NCBI GenBank assembly: GCA_028284905.1
Contig: JANQQU010000082.1
Location: 62,001-126,000 of the forward strand
Direction of reading: 5' to 3'
Origin: Calditrichia bacterium
GTDB lineage: Bacteria > Calditrichota > Calditrichia > RBG-13-44-9 > J075
DNA: 64,000 nt
Below, one piece after another: positions 13,395 through 22,599 of this stretch. Within the stretch, counting starts at the first letter, position 1, and the number at the start of each line of letters is the position of its first letter. The notes beneath the pieces were generated by a model. The model had not been told where the DNA came from and searched no databases. It saw only the letters and a list, made by a program, of their open reading frames with translations. The translations under genes were made by a program, and so were the position numbers.

Positions 13395-16300
13395 ATGGGC
13401 GGTGGCAGCAGTCGCAGTAATAAGCTACTTGACAAACTGAAGGATCAGGAAAAAACGATCAACTGCCTCTTTGAGATTGAGGAGCTGATCAAAAACGCCG
13501 ATGATGAAGATATCCTCTTTCAGGATGTCATTCGGGCAATCCCCAAAGGCTGGCAATATCCGGACAAATGTCTGGTGAAAATTGTCTATGAAGATGATGT
13601 CTATTATTCGGATAATTTTCGGGAAACTCCCTGGGAAATTCGGGCTGGCATTTCCGTGCAGATAGAAACCGTCGGGATGATCCATGTCTATTACACCGAG
13701 CAACTACCGGTAGCCGACGAAGGTCCTTTTCTTAATCGTGAACGTAAACTGCTGAATACTATCGCCGATCGCCTCGGGCACTTCATTCTTCATCTGAGCA
13801 TGGGCCACATCATGAAGAAGAAGCAGGAGCCGGTGCCGCAGAAGAAGGCAGAGTGGTGGATTATTCTGGAATTGCTCGAACGCACCGATCCCAAACTCCT
13901 CCTGCGCATCTGCCGGAAAATGACCAATTTTCTCTGCTGGAGCGGTATTAAAGATGCCGAGCGCCTGCTCGAGTATTTTGCACCGACCTATGAGTCGACG
14001 GATGATCCTCAGGAAGAAGATATGAACCGCCCGAAGCAAAAGCGGGCAATGCAGTCGATAATGAGCATTACGGAAGAGATTTTCAAATTTGCCAGTACCC
14101 ACCTCAGCGAACAGGATATTCTCAACAATATTCAACGCTGGATGAAAGAAGATCGTTCGAATTTTCTTGCCAATATCCTGGAGAATCCTGGTTCTTCCCT
14201 GGCGAAAATTACCGATGCGATTGAACGTTATCACAATCTTTCCCCGGATCAGGGAGAACTGTCCGAGCCCCGGGAAAAAGGATTTCGGGTATCCCTCATT
14301 CGCCGTCTTTTGACCGATCAGGCGGATTTTATCGACATCGCTAAACGCTTCGTTTCCGTCAACGATTTCAATGATTTATTACGCCGGGTCATTTTTCCCG
14401 TGGGCAGCCAGGGGAAGCTCGGTGGGAAAAGCGCCGGACTCTTTCTCGCGACCCGCGTGTTAAAGCAAGCAGCGGAAAAGAATGATATGCTCCAAAATGT
14501 AAAGATGCCGAAAACCTGGTATTTAACTTCCGACGGCATTCTCTACTTTATGAAGTATAACAACCTTGAAGACGTTATGGAGCAGAAGTACAAGGAAATC
14601 TGGCAAATCCGCCAGGAATTTCCTTATGTGGAGCAAGTCTTCAAAAATTCTCCTTTTGCCCCGGAAATCATCAAGGGACTGTCCATGGCGCTGGACGATT
14701 TTGGCGATCGTCCATTAATCGTGCGCAGCTCCAGTTTGCTGGAGGATCGCTTCGGAACTGCCTTTGCCGGGAAATACAAAAGTCTTTTTATCGCCAACCA
14801 GGGCCCGAAAGAAAAACGGTTGGCGGAATTAACTGATGCCATCGCGGAAGTTTACGCCTCTATTTTTGGCCCGGACCCGATTGAATACCGTATGGAGCGC
14901 GGGCTGCAAGATTTCCATGAAGAGATGGGAATTATGATTCAGGAAGTGGTTGGGCAAAAGATCGGCGATTACTATCTGCCCGCCTTTGCCGGCGTTGCCT
15001 TTAGCCGCAACGAGTTCCGCTGGTCCGGCCGTATCAAGGTTTCCGATGGATTACTACGTCTCGTTCCCGGCCTCGGCACCCGGGCGGTCGATCGGGTCAG
15101 CGACGATTATCCGATAATGCTGGCCCCGGGCCAACCCGGTCTGCGCGTCAACATTACCGTGGATGAAAATGTCCGCTATTCTCCCTCTAAAATCGACGTT
15201 ATTAATTTACGCAACAACACTTTTGAAACAGTTGAGATCGAAGAACTCTTAAAGCATCATGGCCATGAATATGAAGGGATCAATTCGATTGTCTCCGTGC
15301 TAAAAGACGGCCTGTTGCGCCTGCCCGGTGGCCTCGGCCCGGATTTTGACAACGACAAACTGGTCGTTACCTTTGAAGGTTTAAATACCCGCACAGACTT
15401 CCTGAAACAGATACACGCAATATTAACCGAGCTGGAAGAGAAACTGGAAACGCCGGTAGATATCGAGTTTGCCCACGATGGTAAACAGTTCTACCTGCTG
15501 CAATGCCGGCCGCAAAGCTATAATTTGGATAACAAACCGGCGGAGATTCCAGGCGATATTCCTGACGATCGATTACTTTTTTCCGCCAACCGCTATATTT
15601 CCAACGGCACTGTGTCGAACATTAGTCACATTGTTTATGTCGATCCGCAGAGCTATAGCGAAATTGCTACCCGGGAAGATTTACTTTCCGTCGGGAGAGC
15701 AGTAAGCAAACTCAACCAGGTGCTCCCAAAGCGCAAATTCATTCTTATGGGACCGGGACGCTGGGGCAGCCGGGGCGATATTAAACTCGGTGTTAGCGTC
15801 ACCTACTCCGATATCAACAATACTGCAATGCTCATCGAGATTGCCCGGCAGAAAGGCAATTATACTCCGGATGTATCTTTCGGCACCCACTTCTTTCTGG
15901 ATTTGGTCGAGAGTCAGATTCGCTATCTCCCCTTGTATCCGGATAATGATGAAGTTGCTTTTAACGAAACGTTTTTCAGTGATTCCCCCAATTTGCTCGG
16001 CGAGCTTCTCCCGGCTTATGCCTATTTGTCCGATACAATTCGGGTGATCGATGTAAAAAAGATATCCGGTGATCTCAACCTGCAGATTTTAATGAATGGT
16101 GATCTGGATCGGGCCGTGGGAATGCTTGGCGCACCAATCCAGGTTGTGGAATCCGCTCCGACGGTAGCGAAGAAATCGATCGAGAAGCAGCCTCCCCCGG
16201 CAGACGACTGGCGCTGGCGATTGCAAATCAGCGAAAAGATTGCCGCCCACCTCGATCCGGAAGTCTTTGGCGTGGAGGCCTTTTACATTTACGGCAGCAC

Positions 16301-16613
16301 TAAAAATGCGACCGCGACCGCCGAAAGCGATATCAACATCCTCATCCATTTCAAGGGAAGCCCAATTCAGAAAAGCGCCCTGATTCACTGGCTGGATGGC
16401 TGGAGCCTGGCGCTGGATGAAATCAATTATTCCCGCACCGGGCACCGTCACGATGGTCTGCTCGATTACCGCCTGGTAACCGATGCGGATATCGAACGCG
16501 GCACCAATTATGCCGATAAGATTAATGCCGTTACCGATCGCGCTCGTCAATTAGCGGTTGGTACTTTCAAGGCAAATCAGGAAAAAGGAAATGCCACCCC
16601 TAAACTAAGCTAG
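13395..16613 (+). CDS. PEP/pyruvate-binding (PPDK N-terminal) protein fused to a nucleotidyltransferase domain
   Basis: 1072 aa. About residues 15-135 resemble a GAF-like sensory domain (LFEIEELIKNADDEDILFQDV, then ERKLLNTIADRLGHFI). About 333-710 form the ATP-grasp-like PEP-synthase/PPDK N-terminal domain (GKLGGKSAGLFLA, RSSSLLEDRFGTAFAGKYKS, IEFAHDGKQFYLLQCRPQS). About 765-890 is a conserved block with GPGRWGSRGDIKLGV. The last ~110 residues contain an NTase-like GS-x(9)-SDINILI motif (about 964-985), as in polymerase-beta-like nucleotidyltransferases. The phosphohistidine swivel domain and TIM-barrel of PPDK/PpsA are absent, so it is not a PEP synthase. A regulatory or nucleotide-transfer role is inference. 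The ATG at 13395 follows AGAGGAAACATC. Confidence 0.75.
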   Translation: MGGGSSRSNKLLDKLKDQEKTINCLFEIEELIKNADDEDILFQDVIRAIPKGWQYPDKCLVKIVYEDDVYYSDNFRETPWEIRAGISVQIETVGMIHVYYTEQLPVADEGPFLNRERKLLNTIADRLGHFILHLSMGHIMKKKQEPVPQKKAEWWIILELLERTDPKLLLRICRKMTNFLCWSGIKDAERLLEYFAPTYESTDDPQEEDMNRPKQKRAMQSIMSITEEIFKFASTHLSEQDILNNIQRWMKEDRSNFLANILENPGSSLAKITDAIERYHNLSPDQGELSEPREKGFRVSLIRRLLTDQADFIDIAKRFVSVNDFNDLLRRVIFPVGSQGKLGGKSAGLFLATRVLKQAAEKNDMLQNVKMPKTWYLTSDGILYFMKYNNLEDVMEQKYKEIWQIRQEFPYVEQVFKNSPFAPEIIKGLSMALDDFGDRPLIVRSSSLLEDRFGTAFAGKYKSLFIANQGPKEKRLAELTDAIAEVYASIFGPDPIEYRMERGLQDFHEEMGIMIQEVVGQKIGDYYLPAFAGVAFSRNEFRWSGRIKVSDGLLRLVPGLGTRAVDRVSDDYPIMLAPGQPGLRVNITVDENVRYSPSKIDVINLRNNTFETVEIEELLKHHGHEYEGINSIVSVLKDGLLRLPGGLGPDFDNDKLVVTFEGLNTRTDFLKQIHAILTELEEKLETPVDIEFAHDGKQFYLLQCRPQSYNLDNKPAEIPGDIPDDRLLFSANRYISNGTVSNISHIVYVDPQSYSEIATREDLLSVGRAVSKLNQVLPKRKFILMGPGRWGSRGDIKLGVSVTYSDINNTAMLIEIARQKGNYTPDVSFGTHFFLDLVESQIRYLPLYPDNDEVAFNETFFSDSPNLLGELLPAYAYLSDTIRVIDVKKISGDLNLQILMNGDLDRAVGMLGAPIQVVESAPTVAKKSIEKQPPPADDWRWRLQISEKIAAHLDPEVFGVEAFYIYGSTKNATATAESDINILIHFKGSPIQKSALIHWLDGWSLALDEINYSRTGHRHDGLLDYRLVTDADIERGTNYADKINAVTDRARQLAVGTFKANQEKGNATPKLS

Positions 16614-16739: not shown

Positions 16740-16752
16740 TTTTTAGGTGATT

Positions 16753-17886
16753 ATGGAAAACTCATTCAATCTGGTGGCAATCATTCTGCTGCTTGGCACG
16801 ACTCAGGGTTTATTCCTTACCTTATTGTTATTAAACAGACCCGTTAACAAAAAGGCTAACAGACTACTGGCCTTGTTAATAATTTCTTATTCAGCTTTTC
16901 TTGTACAGTTTGCAATACAGGGCCTGCAAATTACCAAAGAATTTCCACATATTCTCGGATTAGCCAGCGGCGTTGTTTATTTGATCGGGCCGTTACACTA
17001 TTTTTATGCCAGATCATTAATATCTGCCGATATGTCCTTTTCCAAAAAGTATCTCCTCCATTTAATCCCCTTTGTTATCTTTTACTTGTATATGCTGTTC
17101 CCTTTTTATCTTCGCAGCGGCGCCTACAAAATCGCATTTTTTGAAATGCTTGAGCAATCAGGCCCAACCCCGGCTTTAAGTTTTTTCAGCTGGGTAGTCC
17201 TGTTCCAGGGCATAATCTACATGGGGTTAACTTTTAATCTCTTGAAGAAACATTCGGCTAACATCAAGGAAGAATTTTCATCTCTGGAACAAATCAACCT
17301 TGACTGGTTGAGAAGAATTACCGTCATAACCATGATCGTCTATATCGTGGGGGTAGTGATCGAGTTGGTGCAAACTTTCGACCCGACCACCCCCTTTCAG
17401 GGCCTGGTTCCGATCGCTATTGCCACCCTTATATATGTCATGGGTTATCTGGGGTTAAGGCAACCGGAGATATTTTCCGGCGCGGCCAGTGCCGAAACAA
17501 AAGAATTGAAAAAATATGAACGCTCCGGTTTAACAAAAGAAAAATCCCAACAGATCCATCAAAGACTACGCGATTTAATGGAAAAAAAGAAAGTGTATAC
17601 CGATAGCACCTTAAAACTCAGTCAACTGGCACGAATGGTTTCTACGAGCCCAAATTACTTATCACAAGTAATCAATGAAGAACGTGATCAGAATTTTTAT
17701 GACTTTGTTAATTGGTTTCGAATTGAAGAAACCAAGCGGCTGATCGTAGATCCAGCCCATCAAGAGGAAACCTTGCTATCGATTGCCTATAGTGTCGGAT
17801 TTAATTCAAAATCGGCCTTTAACAGCGCTTTCAAAAAAAATACAGGCATGACCCCGTCTCAATTCAAAAAGGGCATAAAGCGCTAG
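16753..17886 (+). CDS. Membrane-anchored AraC-family transcription regulator
   Basis: 377 aa from ATG 16753 (AGGTG lies 3-7 bases upstream; the in-frame GTG at 16747 overlaps it). About residues 5-245 hold seven hydrophobic segments. A ~45-residue linker and a C-terminal AraC DNA-binding domain (about 285-375) follow, with two helix-turn-helix motifs (LKLSQLARMVSTSPNYLSQVIN and LSIAYSVGFNSKSAFNSAFKK) and the TGMTPSQFK ending. This architecture is common in FCB bacteria and couples a membrane signal directly to transcription. It faces the MipA/OmpV and CPBP-beta-lactamase genes 310 bases downstream on the same strand, which are its likely targets (inference). Confidence 0.88.
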   Translation: MENSFNLVAIILLLGTTQGLFLTLLLLNRPVNKKANRLLALLIISYSAFLVQFAIQGLQITKEFPHILGLASGVVYLIGPLHYFYARSLISADMSFSKKYLLHLIPFVIFYLYMLFPFYLRSGAYKIAFFEMLEQSGPTPALSFFSWVVLFQGIIYMGLTFNLLKKHSANIKEEFSSLEQINLDWLRRITVITMIVYIVGVVIELVQTFDPTTPFQGLVPIAIATLIYVMGYLGLRQPEIFSGAASAETKELKKYERSGLTKEKSQQIHQRLRDLMEKKKVYTDSTLKLSQLARMVSTSPNYLSQVINEERDQNFYDFVNWFRIEETKRLIVDPAHQEETLLSIAYSVGFNSKSAFNSAFKKNTGMTPSQFKKGIKR

Positions 17887-18196
17887 CTATTTTCTTCGGT
17901 TAAGCAATATTTTGAATTTGAGTTATATTTTTTTTGCAACCTGCCATGGATCACCCGCTTTTTTAAAATCTCCATATTTCCATATATAACAGAAACTTAC
18001 AGCTCTCTCATTTTTCTTCCAAAGGTCCTATCCTATAGGTTACGCTCCGTAATACGTTCGGGCTTATAGGACAGGTCGCTAATTTCTCGCCAAGTGTATA
18101 TACTTCTTCAAAATTAATTGAGTCGAATCTTTTTAACCGCTGCCTTATGAAAAAGTATTGGATAAAAGACGACTCACTAACAGAAGGAGATTTACC
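17887..18196. other. 310-bp gap between the AraC regulator and mipA-like gene
   Basis: No gene is recognisable. It contains a nested inverted repeat around 18028-18085 (CCTATA...TATAGG, with inner TTACG-CTC-CGTAA), which could be an operator or leader structure for the downstream pair. An AGAAGGAGA ribosome site ends the gap. Confidence 0.4.
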
Positions 18197-19033
18197 ATGA
18201 AACACATCAAAGCACTTATTGTCGGCGTTATTGTTGTAATTGCTGCTCAAGCGTTATCTGCCCAAGACGCCGGTTGGACCTTTACCCTGAGTGGAGGTAT
18301 TGCCGGTGAAAATGTCTACCTGGGTTCGGATGATTATTACCTTACCCCTTTACCAAACTTTAGAGCTTCATACGCCAAGGGAAAATTTAACGGCTCATTC
18401 TCTTTATTGGATGGACTGGGGCTTAGTTATAGAATCCCCAGTTTAGGACTACTCGCAAGTTTGAGTGTAAAATCCGGTGGCACCCGAAACGCGAAAGAAT
18501 ACACCCTGATTGGCTTTCCGGTGAAACACAGCGCCAAAACGCAAAAATTGCTGGAAGGGACGCCGAACCTAGATACGCCGCTGGAGGGGAATATCATGCT
18601 GGCCTATCTATCCCCGGTCGGATTATTTGGCGCCTCCCTCGCCTATCATCCCACAAAAGTGGAATACAACCAGGCAAACTTAAAAAATGAGACTCGGCAA
18701 GGATATGTTTATTCCCTCCAGTACATGATCGAGTTACCGGCTGCGAAACGATTGACCGTATCGGGCCTGGCCAACGTGGACTTTATGGATCGAAATTATG
18801 CCGACACCTGGTACAGCGTTGATCGGGAGACGAATTCACTTAATACTTTTAAGGCCAATGCCGGACTGCACAGCAGTACAGTTGCCGTAGAAATTAAATA
18901 TCAGCTCTCTAAACGCATCAACTTTTCATTCTTAGGGGCCAGTACTATTCTTCTTGAAGATGCCAGGAACAGCCCCTTCACGATTGAGCCAGTCCAACGG
19001 ACGATGATGTTACAAACCTTATATCACTTTTAA
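18197..19033 (+). CDS. MipA/OmpV-family outer-membrane protein
   Basis: 278 aa from ATG 18197, which lies 6 bases after a strong AGAAGGAGA ribosome site; the upstream in-frame start adds only a charged stretch. Residues 1-22 are a signal peptide ending ALSA|Q. The mature part shows MipA/OmpV traits: GENVYLGSDDYYLTPLPNFRASY near the start, an RNAKEY-type segment, alternating beta-strand patterns, and a C-terminal YHF as in barrel proteins. MipA scaffolds peptidoglycan enzymes in E. coli; many relatives are barrel proteins linked to antimicrobial response. It is separated from the next gene by 33 bases, so they form an operon. Confidence 0.75.
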   Translation: MKHIKALIVGVIVVIAAQALSAQDAGWTFTLSGGIAGENVYLGSDDYYLTPLPNFRASYAKGKFNGSFSLLDGLGLSYRIPSLGLLASLSVKSGGTRNAKEYTLIGFPVKHSAKTQKLLEGTPNLDTPLEGNIMLAYLSPVGLFGASLAYHPTKVEYNQANLKNETRQGYVYSLQYMIELPAAKRLTVSGLANVDFMDRNYADTWYSVDRETNSLNTFKANAGLHSSTVAVEIKYQLSKRINFSFLGASTILLEDARNSPFTIEPVQRTMMLQTLYHF

Positions 19034-19066
19034 CCGGACAATCGAATAAAAAAGAGGAACGAACTC

Positions 19067-21094
19067 ATGAAATCGCATGAAAAAACATTCATGAAAAGCC
19101 CCTGGATCTATTTTTTGGCGACCTTTATTTTGACTTGGGGCTTGTGCGGGATTTTGATTTTCAAAGATATGAGCGGCTCCCCGGTATTCTCATTTGGTGT
19201 GCTGGTCCTGGCGATGTTGTCGCCAGGAATAACCGGGATTATATTTACCCATTTAACCAAAACAGACGAAGAAATCCGGGATTATTGGCAGCGTACCATC
19301 GATTTGACGCGCCTGTCGTTTTCCTGGCTGGTAATTGTCATCAGCTTGCCGTTCCTTTTGCAAATCCTGGCTGGAACCATTGATGGACTGACTGGTGGCA
19401 AAGGCCTAAGTTGGGCAGATACGGCAACGGCATTTATCTCTGAGCCGGCAACTCAATTACTCTCGCTCTTCGCAATCAGCGCAGTTCCTTTTTTCGAAGA
19501 ACTGGGCTGGCGGGGGTATGCCCAGGACCTCCTCCAGAAGAAACATAGTGCAATAACTGCCAGCTTAATTCTGGGCGGCATTTGGTCGTTCTGGCATCTA
19601 CCGGCCTCATTTATCCCTTCTACATATCAAGCAGGACTTGGCATCGGAACACTTGAGTTCTGGCTGCACTTTATCGGTATCGTGTTTTTAAGCATTACCA
19701 TTTCCTGGATCTATATCAACACGAACCGCAGTATTCTGATAATGGTGGTTTTTCATGCCACGATCAATCTTGCCGGTGAAATCATCAAATTATCAGAAAC
19801 AGGAGAAATCATTTACACCCTTTGCTGGTTCTCCGCAGCTATTGCAATATTGTTCGGTTTTGGTAAAGAAATGACGCTGCATCCGAAAACCCGACAGGAA
19901 GTTCGCTTCGGTCATGACAAAATACTTTCGCTTATTGTAATTGGTTTCTTATCGGCATTGGCATTCGCTCAACCTGTTTCGGCAGACACTCAAGCTCTCA
20001 AATCCCAATTTCAGATGGAGTTGGATAATATTCATCTCGAATATGGTTTCCCCGGCGCAACCGCGGCCTACATCCTGCCGGATGGCACCGTCGAAGTGGT
20101 TGCGACCGGCCTCGCTGACAAACACCACGAAATACCGATGACACCAGAGTCTCGCATGCTGGCCGCAAGTATTGGTAAAACGTTTGTAGCGGCCACAGTC
20201 CTCGCCTTAGTGCAGGAGGGGCATTTGAGCCTCGATGCCCCTATTTCAAAATGGCTTGGTGAACGCCCCTGGTTTCGCCGGCTTGCCAATCATGGCACAA
20301 TTTCTCTACGCCACCTTCTCAATCACACTTCGGGGCTGGCCAATCATGTCGAAAATGAAAAGTTCGTCCTGGATTTCGCAGACAAATGGCGTTTTGGCAA
20401 AAATCCTTATTCGCCGGAAGATTTAATCACCTTCATCCTGGATCAACCTCCCCTGTTCTTCCCGGGAGAAGGATGGTCCTATAGCGATACCGGCTACTTG
20501 CTTGTCGGCCTGATCATTGAAGAGGTAACGGGGAAAAGCTACTATGACGAAGTGGAAGAACGGTTTTTGAAACCTTTGCAGCTAACCTTGACAACGCCTG
20601 CGAATCAAACCGAACTGCCGAACCTGGCCACTGGCTATCTGACTACGGAGAACAAGTTCAGACTACCACAGCAAACGACTGTCCAACCAGGTATAATGTC
20701 CTGGCATCCCGGTCTCGAGTGGACCGGGGGTGGCCTGGTGAGCAATCCGCGAGATCTGGTGATTTGGGGTAAAGCCCTTTTTGATGGCCAGGTAATAGTT
20801 GGGAATTATCTAAGAGCGCTTCTTCAATCAGAGCCCGTCAACAAGAACAGTGCGGAATTGCGGTATGGACTGGCAGTGGCGGTTCGCGAGAACGACCACT
20901 TTGGGACAACCTATGGTCATGGTGGATGGATACCTGGCTACTGTTCCAGTCTGCGCTATTATCCCCATTCCGGCACTGCTATAGCCTTCCAGATCAACAC
21001 TGATATTGGAATTATAGATAGCTCAACACCGCTAATCGAAGAAATGGAAATGCGATTGGCTGCGGTCGTTATGGCCTCAATTTCGGTCAAGTAA
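19067..21094 (+). CDS. Fusion of a CPBP (Abi-type) membrane protease and a beta-lactamase-like serine hydrolase
   Basis: 675 aa. About residues 10-275 are a multi-spanning CPBP/CAAX-type glutamic protease: EELGWRGYAQ near 143 (EExxxR), SFWHLPAS, and VFHATIN with the last histidine. Near 285-308 a hydrophobic stretch ending ALAFAQPVSA looks like a former signal peptide at the junction. About 310-670 are a class-C beta-lactamase/penicillin-binding-like domain: SIGK (S near 368), YSDTGY near 471, and YGHGGW near 615 in place of KTG. The serine hydrolase half should face the periplasm. Peptide or peptidoglycan substrates are guesses. It is co-transcribed with the MipA-like gene. Confidence 0.88.
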   Translation: MKSHEKTFMKSPWIYFLATFILTWGLCGILIFKDMSGSPVFSFGVLVLAMLSPGITGIIFTHLTKTDEEIRDYWQRTIDLTRLSFSWLVIVISLPFLLQILAGTIDGLTGGKGLSWADTATAFISEPATQLLSLFAISAVPFFEELGWRGYAQDLLQKKHSAITASLILGGIWSFWHLPASFIPSTYQAGLGIGTLEFWLHFIGIVFLSITISWIYINTNRSILIMVVFHATINLAGEIIKLSETGEIIYTLCWFSAAIAILFGFGKEMTLHPKTRQEVRFGHDKILSLIVIGFLSALAFAQPVSADTQALKSQFQMELDNIHLEYGFPGATAAYILPDGTVEVVATGLADKHHEIPMTPESRMLAASIGKTFVAATVLALVQEGHLSLDAPISKWLGERPWFRRLANHGTISLRHLLNHTSGLANHVENEKFVLDFADKWRFGKNPYSPEDLITFILDQPPLFFPGEGWSYSDTGYLLVGLIIEEVTGKSYYDEVEERFLKPLQLTLTTPANQTELPNLATGYLTTENKFRLPQQTTVQPGIMSWHPGLEWTGGGLVSNPRDLVIWGKALFDGQVIVGNYLRALLQSEPVNKNSAELRYGLAVAVRENDHFGTTYGHGGWIPGYCSSLRYYPHSGTAIAFQINTDIGIIDSSTPLIEEMEMRLAAVVMASISVK

Positions 21095-21656: not shown

Positions 21657-22358
21657 CTATTCTTTCTGAGCATTCTTTTCGAGCAGACGATTCAATTCCT
21701 GTTCAATATCAAACATGATATCCTTGTAAACACCTTCCTTAAGGATTTTGATCTTTCCGGACTGAACAATTTTGTGCAGGCTCTGTAAAACCTTGCTGAT
21801 AAATTCCACAGTATCTTTCGCAATCACGCGGATCCGTTCAGTATCCTCTTTCTGATCGTCTTCCATAATCTGAATCGCAAAGTACAGCGGCGTCAAGGCA
21901 TTGTTGATGTAATGGTTCAAGGTAACCATTATCCGCTGAATATTCTTCAGGTTCTCCAGCTGGGCATCTTTCTGCTGAATCTGGTTCTGAAGATCGATGA
22001 TACGCTGGATAGATCGCATTTTCAGCTGCATTTCCAGGGCATTATATGGCACGAAGATAAAATCGTCCGCGCCCATCTCGAACGCCAGCAATTGATCAAC
22101 AAAACGATTTTTATCCATGATGCAAACGAGGGGAAGAAATTTAAAGGTGGGGTTTTTCTTGATCTTGTCGCAGATATCGAACACGTCATGCTTGGAGTAT
22201 TCAAAATCCAGCAGGATCATTTTATAATCCGGCTGATTATTGAGTTGCATAAATGCCCGGGTGAAATCATCCAATACGTCAACCTCAAATCCCTCCTTGG
22301 AGAGGTCGGTCTGAATCGTTTTGGCTGTGTTCTGGTTATCTGAAAGTAGTAGTATCAT
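21657..22358 (-). CDS. Receiver-domain protein with a degenerate switch and a HisKA-like helical tail
   Basis: 233 aa from the ATG at 22358-22356, where the receiver domain begins (ILLLSDN); a TTG at 22379 would add seven residues without a better ribosome site. The receiver domain (1-120) keeps the phospho-acceptor D51 in ILLDF, but V103 replaces the conserved switch lysine (FIFVPYN) and the usual Thr/Ser is missing. About 120-140 are a coiled coil. Then a helix with H149 (RIMVTLNHYINNALTPL) resembles a histidine-kinase dimerisation helix, without an ATPase domain. It may receive or pass phosphate in a relay, or act as a scaffold. No kinase gene is adjacent. Confidence 0.75.
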   Translation of the reverse strand: MILLLSDNQNTAKTIQTDLSKEGFEVDVLDDFTRAFMQLNNQPDYKMILLDFEYSKHDVFDICDKIKKNPTFKFLPLVCIMDKNRFVDQLLAFEMGADDFIFVPYNALEMQLKMRSIQRIIDLQNQIQQKDAQLENLKNIQRIMVTLNHYINNALTPLYFAIQIMEDDQKEDTERIRVIAKDTVEFISKVLQSLHKIVQSGKIKILKEGVYKDIMFDIEQELNRLLEKNAQKE

Positions 22359-22599
22359 CCCCGGGTATCCGTCAAGCAAACAGTTATTTTCATATTAGCG
22401 AAATTATTATGTAAAACCAAGCAGGTTATTGTTATAACAAAAATGCCCTTGCGATCTTGATGAAGGTCTAATGTTTTCATATAAAAAAAATCAGCAGTAA
22501 AAAAACAAACAAAATAGCAGATCTTTCGTTATTGTTGCAATCCATCCGGCAGTATTTGGTGTCCAAAAGAAAATGCCAATTAAAGAAAAGAGGTCGCCT

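Follow-up and report, generated by a model that had tools for sequence, protein, structure and literature searches.

Two described systems and two enzyme families come closest to the locus considered here, which lies at positions 16,753–21,094 of a 64,000-nucleotide stretch (hereafter the window) of contig JANQQU010000082.1 from a Calditrichia bacterium (assembly GCA_028284905.1). This locus encodes a seven-transmembrane (7TM) AraC-type regulator, an outer-membrane barrel of the MipA/OmpV family, and a fusion protein in which an intramembrane protease of the CPBP family is joined to an S12-type serine hydrolase.

In the microcystin mlr pathway of Sphingopyxis, MlrA and then MlrB act on microcystin (PMC12474180, PMC11070527). 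A CPBP protease of the inner membrane is there combined, as at the present locus, with a beta-lactamase-fold serine hydrolase, which in the mlr case is periplasmic; the two mlr enzymes act in sequence on one peptide. The published MlrA residues E172, W176, W201, H205, H260, and N264 find counterparts in E144, W148, W173, H177, H230, and N234 of the window CPBP domain, with an equal distance of 33 from the Glu to the His; among the MlrB residues S77, K80, Y171, N173, and H307, the Ser, Lys, Tyr, and His are matched here, whereas N173 corresponds to D474, a position that is Asp in 81 of 81 sequences. However, mlrA and mlrB are separate, divergent genes that come with mlrC and mlrD, and MlrB is a 59 kDa protein. 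As for mlrC and mlrD, a scan of six proteins of the window, including three neighbors, detected no M81 or MFS domain. The mlr system is set apart by these described features and residues.

In Pseudomonas aeruginosa, MipA-MipB senses polymyxin, and a MipA/OmpV barrel is there co-encoded with a beta-lactamase-fold envelope protein, with a membrane sensor above them, an arrangement that resembles the window locus (PMC10936184). The same source describes a shorter serine hydrolase adjoining mipA in Achromobacter. MipB is a lipoprotein with degenerate catalytic motifs, without SxxK, and with two extra C-terminal domains, whereas the hydrolase of the window has SxxK and is tethered by a CPBP domain; control also differs, with the ParR/ParS two-component system in one case and an adjacent 7TM-AraC regulator in the other. 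That paper makes no use of the term CAAX (PMC10936184).

Among the D-stereospecific S12 peptidases, a group that also takes in the BogQ-type resistance peptidases, the solved structures 4y7p and 9s7k are the nearest in sequence and fold to the hydrolase half of the fusion, from which they differ by a Y-S-N second motif, as opposed to Y-[ST]-D here. No such peptidase is known to be fused to a CPBP protease. D-stereospecific resistance peptidases were reportedly described by Li et al. in 2018. Another study reports that a D-stereospecific peptidase activity hydrolyzes gramicidin A (PMC9541196).

By the features tested, the module falls outside both the mlr and the MipBA systems, and it plausibly works like a blend of barrel, membrane protease, D-peptidase, and membrane regulator. 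The unit is real and conserved, each of its parts comes from a known family, and the whole is apparently unnamed; no paper on its gene pair turned up in the open-licence PubMed Central literature, which is weak evidence of absence. The fused protein probably degrades unusual peptides that reach the cell envelope.

A conserved pair of enzymes

A scan of the contigs of named genomes with the whole fusion gave no match. A contig search that used the hydrolase halves from two loci yielded 125 relatives, of which 80 (44–66% identity, 15 named phyla) were kept; since only the hydrolase had supplied the search patterns, this search was not biased toward CPBP neighbors. By profile, 76 of these 80 have a same-strand CPBP gene, and in L148 the C-terminus of a CPBP protein is visible at the contig start (by eye, against L193), which brings the total to 77/80. 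Two of the three remaining loci are cut short, L164 ending about 110 bp upstream of the hydrolase gene and L153 about 250 bp downstream of it, inside a 7TM-AraC gene. Everywhere except in L161, where AraC and MipA genes stand between them, the CPBP and hydrolase genes are immediate neighbors. By comparison, a CPBP neighbor, sought within up to 1.5 kb, was present in none of the 26 control loci of more distant hydrolases (<40% identity), and the 80 loci contain 13 further hydrolases, of which 1 is accompanied by a CPBP gene. The initial annotation had suggested looking for its gene set in other genomes, and the core of that set is indeed co-located in relatives, with recurring regulators and barrels and, in L161, all four parts. 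Its interpretation is partly upheld, in that the parts do form a unit.

Gene order within the pair varies: the CPBP gene comes first in 67 loci and the hydrolase gene in 9, and a 4-bp stop-start overlap is seen in 14/80 (with start choices made in this analysis). On a conjugative plasmid of Acaryochloris marina, the pair also has a 4-bp overlap and is annotated merely as CAAX endopeptidase and serine hydrolase. A hydrolase tree of 81 rows implies at least 19 changes of phylum, at least four changes of gene order, and at least five changes in the presence of AraC. As order and phylum both change on this tree, the link between the two genes has been maintained, not merely inherited. The pair appears to move and to rearrange, and its patchy presence, its plasmid copy, and its dedicated regulators are what an accessory system would show. 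There is good support for joint action of the two enzymes, and the fusion suggests that they act as one machine. The role of most bacterial CPBP proteases is an open question; with a partner kept in 77/80 loci, whichever gene comes first and across many phyla, a branch of this family now has a testable job.

Separately, the L168 (Marinobacter) and L175 ('Rhodopirellula' metagenome-assembled genome) loci are nearly identical, probably through binning contamination, and some bins may be contaminated.

The fused protein

The AraC, MipA, and fusion genes are all present in the window, each without interruption, and the locus is laid out as follows.

16747–17886, + strand: AraC regulator gene, 379 aa; start GTG 16747 or ATG 16753, the latter likelier
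18027–18037, no strand: left arm of an imperfect inverted repeat, CCTATCCTATA, a 10/11 match to the candidate operator (found by script)
18065–18078, + strand: candidate operator TATAGGACAGGTCG, the sole exact copy in the 8.55 Mb genome
18197–19033, + strand: 278-aa outer-membrane barrel of the MipA/OmpV family; signal peptide, C-terminal Phe; PF06629
19067–21094, + strand: fusion gene, single frame, 675 aa, CPBP plus S12 hydrolase
19067–19921, + strand: N-terminal half of the fusion, CPBP/Rce1-like intramembrane glutamate protease, residues 1–285; PF02517, 4cad
19922–19978, + strand: extra transmembrane segment of the fusion, residues 286–304; hydropathy scan
19979–21094, + strand: C-terminal half of the fusion, S12-type serine hydrolase; PF00144; S368, K371, Y472, D474, E551, H618

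AraC and MipA are 310 bp apart, and MipA is followed by the fusion after 33 bp on the common strand. The true start of MipA is the ATG at 18197, which lies behind a ribosome-binding site (AAGGAG), while 18158 is not a start. Pfam matches and a model of the AraC protein bear out the seven-helix AraC, the MipA/OmpV protein, and the CPBP-hydrolase fusion that had been read from the DNA beforehand.

The CPBP half matches PF02517 over residues 131–235 (55.9 bits against a cut-off of 22.4) and carries the catalytic motifs EExxxR, His, and HxxxN (E144, E145, and R149; H177; H230 and N234), together with W148. Among its relatives, E144, E145, W148, H177, and H230 are invariant (77/77). Its nearest solved structure is MmRce1 (4cad, E 7.4e-27 over 260 residues), but it scores 119 bits against the 425-bit cut-off of the NCBIfam MmRce1 equivalog; it also matches weakly to CPBP_SdpC, which relates to a peptidoglycan-release complex. 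In Rce1 proteases both termini are cytoplasmic. As segment 286–304, according to the hydropathy scan, crosses the membrane once more, the hydrolase half is predicted to be tethered on the periplasmic side.

An assembly artifact is an unlikely source of the fusion, since its sister on the hydrolase tree (L147, support 99/91), which belongs to the Desulfobacteraceae and hence to another phylum, keeps one reading frame from its CPBP part across the same linker and on into its hydrolase part. L147 shares both MipA and the fusion with the window, and has a frameshift inside its hydrolase part.

The hydrolase half matches PF00144 over residues 325–646 (196 bits against a cut-off of 27), and the fusion ends about 30 residues past this domain. 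The SxxK motif (S368–K371) is kept in 80 of 81 rows, with one gap, and Y472, D474, and E551 are each kept in 81/81. The third motif, H/K-x-G, is present as H618-G-G, with His in 79/81. The YxN motif, in contrast, is replaced by Y472-S-D474 in the window, with Asp in all 81 rows of the clade. This motif is typical rather than universal: among 68 control hydrolases, some of whose genes are doubled via overlapping loci, position 474 is Asn in 39 and Asp in 17, the Asp rows including L073, which duplicates the KSB1 member of the clade. At the position of E551, Glu is found in 2 of the 68.

The best match of the hydrolase is the alkaline D-peptidase 4y7p, both by sequence (E 3.1e-43) and by fold (template-modeling score of 0.86 on the target), followed by the D-stereospecific hydrolase dHy1 (9s7k), a D-stereospecific amidohydrolase, the R61 DD-peptidase, and a D-amino acid amidase. 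Class C beta-lactamases come far behind the D-stereospecific enzymes and R61, and identity as a class C enzyme was rejected (41 bits against an NCBIfam cut-off of 415, with HGG in place of KTG). The initial description of this half as beta-lactamase-like therefore stands for the fold, given PF00144, but not for kinship: judged by its matches, the hydrolase is nearest to D-stereospecific peptidases and is not a true beta-lactamase.

In Alteromonas, the same hydrolase is joined instead to DUF6544/DUF6920 (L154:6920-9052 and L146:2613-4745, the latter by profile), and DUF6544 genes occur near other enzyme pairs too.

Barrels, regulators, and the candidate operator

The window MipA matches PF06629 at 76.7 bits, where the cut-off is 24.2, with an E-value of 3.7e-21. 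Across the 81 loci, window included, barrel candidates lie within 2 kb of 19 pairs: MipA in five (the window, L137, L141, L147, and L161), an unnamed family in five (L135, L166, L167, L172, and L176; signal peptide, and C-terminal Phe in most), DUF2860 in four, and DUF6268 in five. MipA is the only established barrel family among them, the other candidates being proposed from signal peptides, C-termini, and weak matches; the L161 MipA was missed by the MipA profile search and recovered via Pfam. In the 14-row clade of the window (support 93/94), a barrel is present in 10, and two of the remaining four (L138 and L139) end at a contig edge. The complete L161 locus, from Pseudohongiella, has the order hydrolase, 7TM-AraC, MipA, CPBP. 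Regulators adjoining the pair are of the TetR type in 16 of the 81 loci and of the 7TM-AraC type in seven.

The window regulator matches HTH_18 (E 5.5e-19) and HTH_AraC (E 7.8e-13), both over cut-off, and its predicted model consists of seven long N-terminal helices followed by a standard helix-turn-helix domain, with a mean predicted local distance difference test (pLDDT) score of 92.5. A Foldseek search with this model at E ≤ 0.001 matched the DNA-binding domain alone. In a second fold comparison of the 7TM part (16753–17460), G-protein-coupled receptors (GPCRs) of several classes came top (Z 14.5–16, about 230 residues), and no microbial rhodopsin was among the 50 matches listed; since helical bundles score Z of about 14 by arrangement alone, no kinship to GPCRs is claimed.

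The KSB1 locus (L037/L156, one contig) has the order AraC, 7TM protein without helix-turn-helix, hydrolase, CPBP, small membrane protein, and is 57% identical to the window in AraC, over its length, and 52% in the hydrolase. An operator search upstream of 18197 had been proposed, and a candidate does lie there: the 14-bp TATAGGACAGGTCG, at 18065 in the window, is found exactly in the AraC-to-enzyme-operon gap of both loci, as a single exact copy in each genome, with an inverted near-copy at 18027 in the window. By hand estimate, and with four region pairs compared, the chance expectation for such a match between two such gaps is about 0.0006. When one mismatch is allowed, the two genomes hold three and two sites, versus one and one for a reversed control. 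A search against one Spirochaete locus and one Fodinibius locus gave no excess over shuffles. A promoter scan was uninformative (8 sites versus 8.2 expected), and direct repeats in the AraC–mipA gap numbered 1 versus 1.8 expected. TATAGGACAGGTCG is a candidate operator for the AraC regulator, and a single site common to two distant genomes makes this regulator directly testable.

The 7TM protein of the KSB1 locus (L037:11771-12637, − strand) belongs to the AraC-sensor family and has no DNA-binding domain; it is perhaps a decoy or a partner sensor.

In a sample of 50 other 7TM-AraC genes, taken from stretches fetched around matches to the window regulator, a PF00144-type hydrolase or a CPBP gene lies within 2.5 kb of 12, against about one expected by a rough hand estimate. 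Two of these 12 are from the KSB1 locus, and none is another copy among the 13 regulator matches of the window genome. Given this excess, 7TM-AraC regulators and PF00144-type hydrolases may be tied more widely than in this module. Examples of such 7TM-AraC genes adjoining a PF00144-type hydrolase or CPBP gene are in L087 (G005), L086 (G006), L103 and L118 (G021), L123 (G101), and L089 and L097 (G003).

Proposed function and alternatives

The reading that we favor, with a probability of roughly 45%, is that of an inducible envelope module for the uptake and cleavage of D-residue or cyclic peptides, the substrate class being a reasoned guess. The 7TM-AraC protein in the inner membrane would sense the compound or its effect and, presumably by binding the site at 18065, turn on mipA and the fusion. 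By analogy with P. aeruginosa MipA, the outer-membrane barrel may bind or admit the compound. The fusion, going by its families and catalytic residues, would unite two proteases in a single polypeptide at the inner membrane, and its CPBP and hydrolase parts could open and then trim a D-residue or cyclic (lipo)peptide, in the fashion of MlrA and then MlrB, so that an antibiotic is destroyed or food released. A bolder version of this proposal is possible but doubtful, namely that the pair, with its invariant Y-[ST]-D and Glu551 signature, is a horizontally spread two-enzyme system for degrading peptide antibiotics at the envelope, served by interchangeable barrels and, at this locus, by a one-component regulator in which seven helices in a GPCR-like arrangement lead directly into a DNA-binding domain. 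Were a D-residue or cyclic peptide antibiotic the substrate, this would be a widespread, partly plasmid-borne peptide-degrading route that is now hidden under the annotations 'CAAX endopeptidase' and 'serine hydrolase'.

Several observations weigh against uptake and cleavage of such peptides by this module. L163 is a real exception to the pairing, with no CPBP gene in 733 bp upstream or 7 kb downstream of its hydrolase. N234 is kept in only 20 of the 77 CPBP proteins (Ile in 47, Met in 10), the other catalytic residues being intact; its counterpart N264 is counted with the MlrA active site (PMC12474180, PMC11070527). The solved D-peptidases shown have Y-S-N where the clade has Y-[ST]-D, so the specificity of the hydrolase may differ from theirs, and in NCBIfam the ester hydrolase AcmB ranks closely behind D-aminopeptidase. 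Most alphaproteobacterial pairs have neither a barrel nor an AraC neighbor by the profiles used, which makes both of these parts optional. Finally, the AlphaFold model of the fusion has a pLDDT above 90 for the hydrolase half and mostly below 60 for the CPBP half, a confidence too low to place the two active sites relative to each other; in the alignment used, the CPBP rows were misplaced at their ends, and no claim on CPBP was drawn from the model.

Among the alternatives, an unlikely one is a sensing module in which the barrel and its beta-lactamase-fold partner detect an envelope-active peptide, and CPBP cuts a membrane protein, perhaps the 7TM-AraC regulator, as a relay. MipA beside such a partner is the published MipBA arrangement (PMC10936184), and the locus does contain a membrane-bound regulator of transcription as well as an intramembrane protease. 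However, the Ser and Lys kept in 80/81 hydrolases, unlike in MipB, which has no SxxK, indicate that catalysis matters, and the would-be 7TM-AraC substrate is absent beside most pairs.

It is quite improbable that the locus serves housekeeping of the envelope, with a DD-peptidase-like hydrolase and CPBP trimming peptidoglycan or lipoproteins on a MipA scaffold. In its favor, the solved structures closest to the hydrolase include the R61 DD-peptidase, and CPBP_SdpC is weakly matched, but a very patchy distribution, with at least 19 phylum changes on the tree, a copy on a conjugative plasmid, and dedicated regulators of its own point to an accessory system.

We give similarly little credence to a pair of enzymes that would break down or detoxify esters or other small compounds outside the peptides. 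The hydrolase family includes esterases; of the 54 rows given, 28 of which hold a hydrolase, 19 are matched by the profile of AcmB, a methyl acetate hydrolase; and neighbors in Rhodobacteraceae include alpha/beta hydrolases, an amidohydrolase, and a quinone-type oxidoreductase. Such neighbors are however found mainly in related alpha- and gammaproteobacteria, and it is hard to see what a near-constant intramembrane protease partner would contribute to the breakdown of esters.

That ordinary genes adjoin here by chance is very improbable, for although all component families are common in the window genome (13 7TM-AraC, 6 Rce1-like, and at least 8 hydrolases), the 77/80 versus 0/26 pairing, the fusion, and the single-copy site common to two genomes all speak against it.

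Other observations in the window

A phage-defense role was dropped as none of the three proteins was matched by PADLOC anti-phage profiles at E 0.01. Downstream of the fusion, 21657–22379 (− strand) encodes a response-regulator receiver domain followed by a stretch without a recognized output domain. On the other side, 13395–16613 encodes a 1072-aa protein of unusual arrangement, with a PPDK_N (PEP-synthase ATP-binding) domain and, near the C-terminus, a weak, sub-cut-off match to a Polbeta nucleotidyltransferase.

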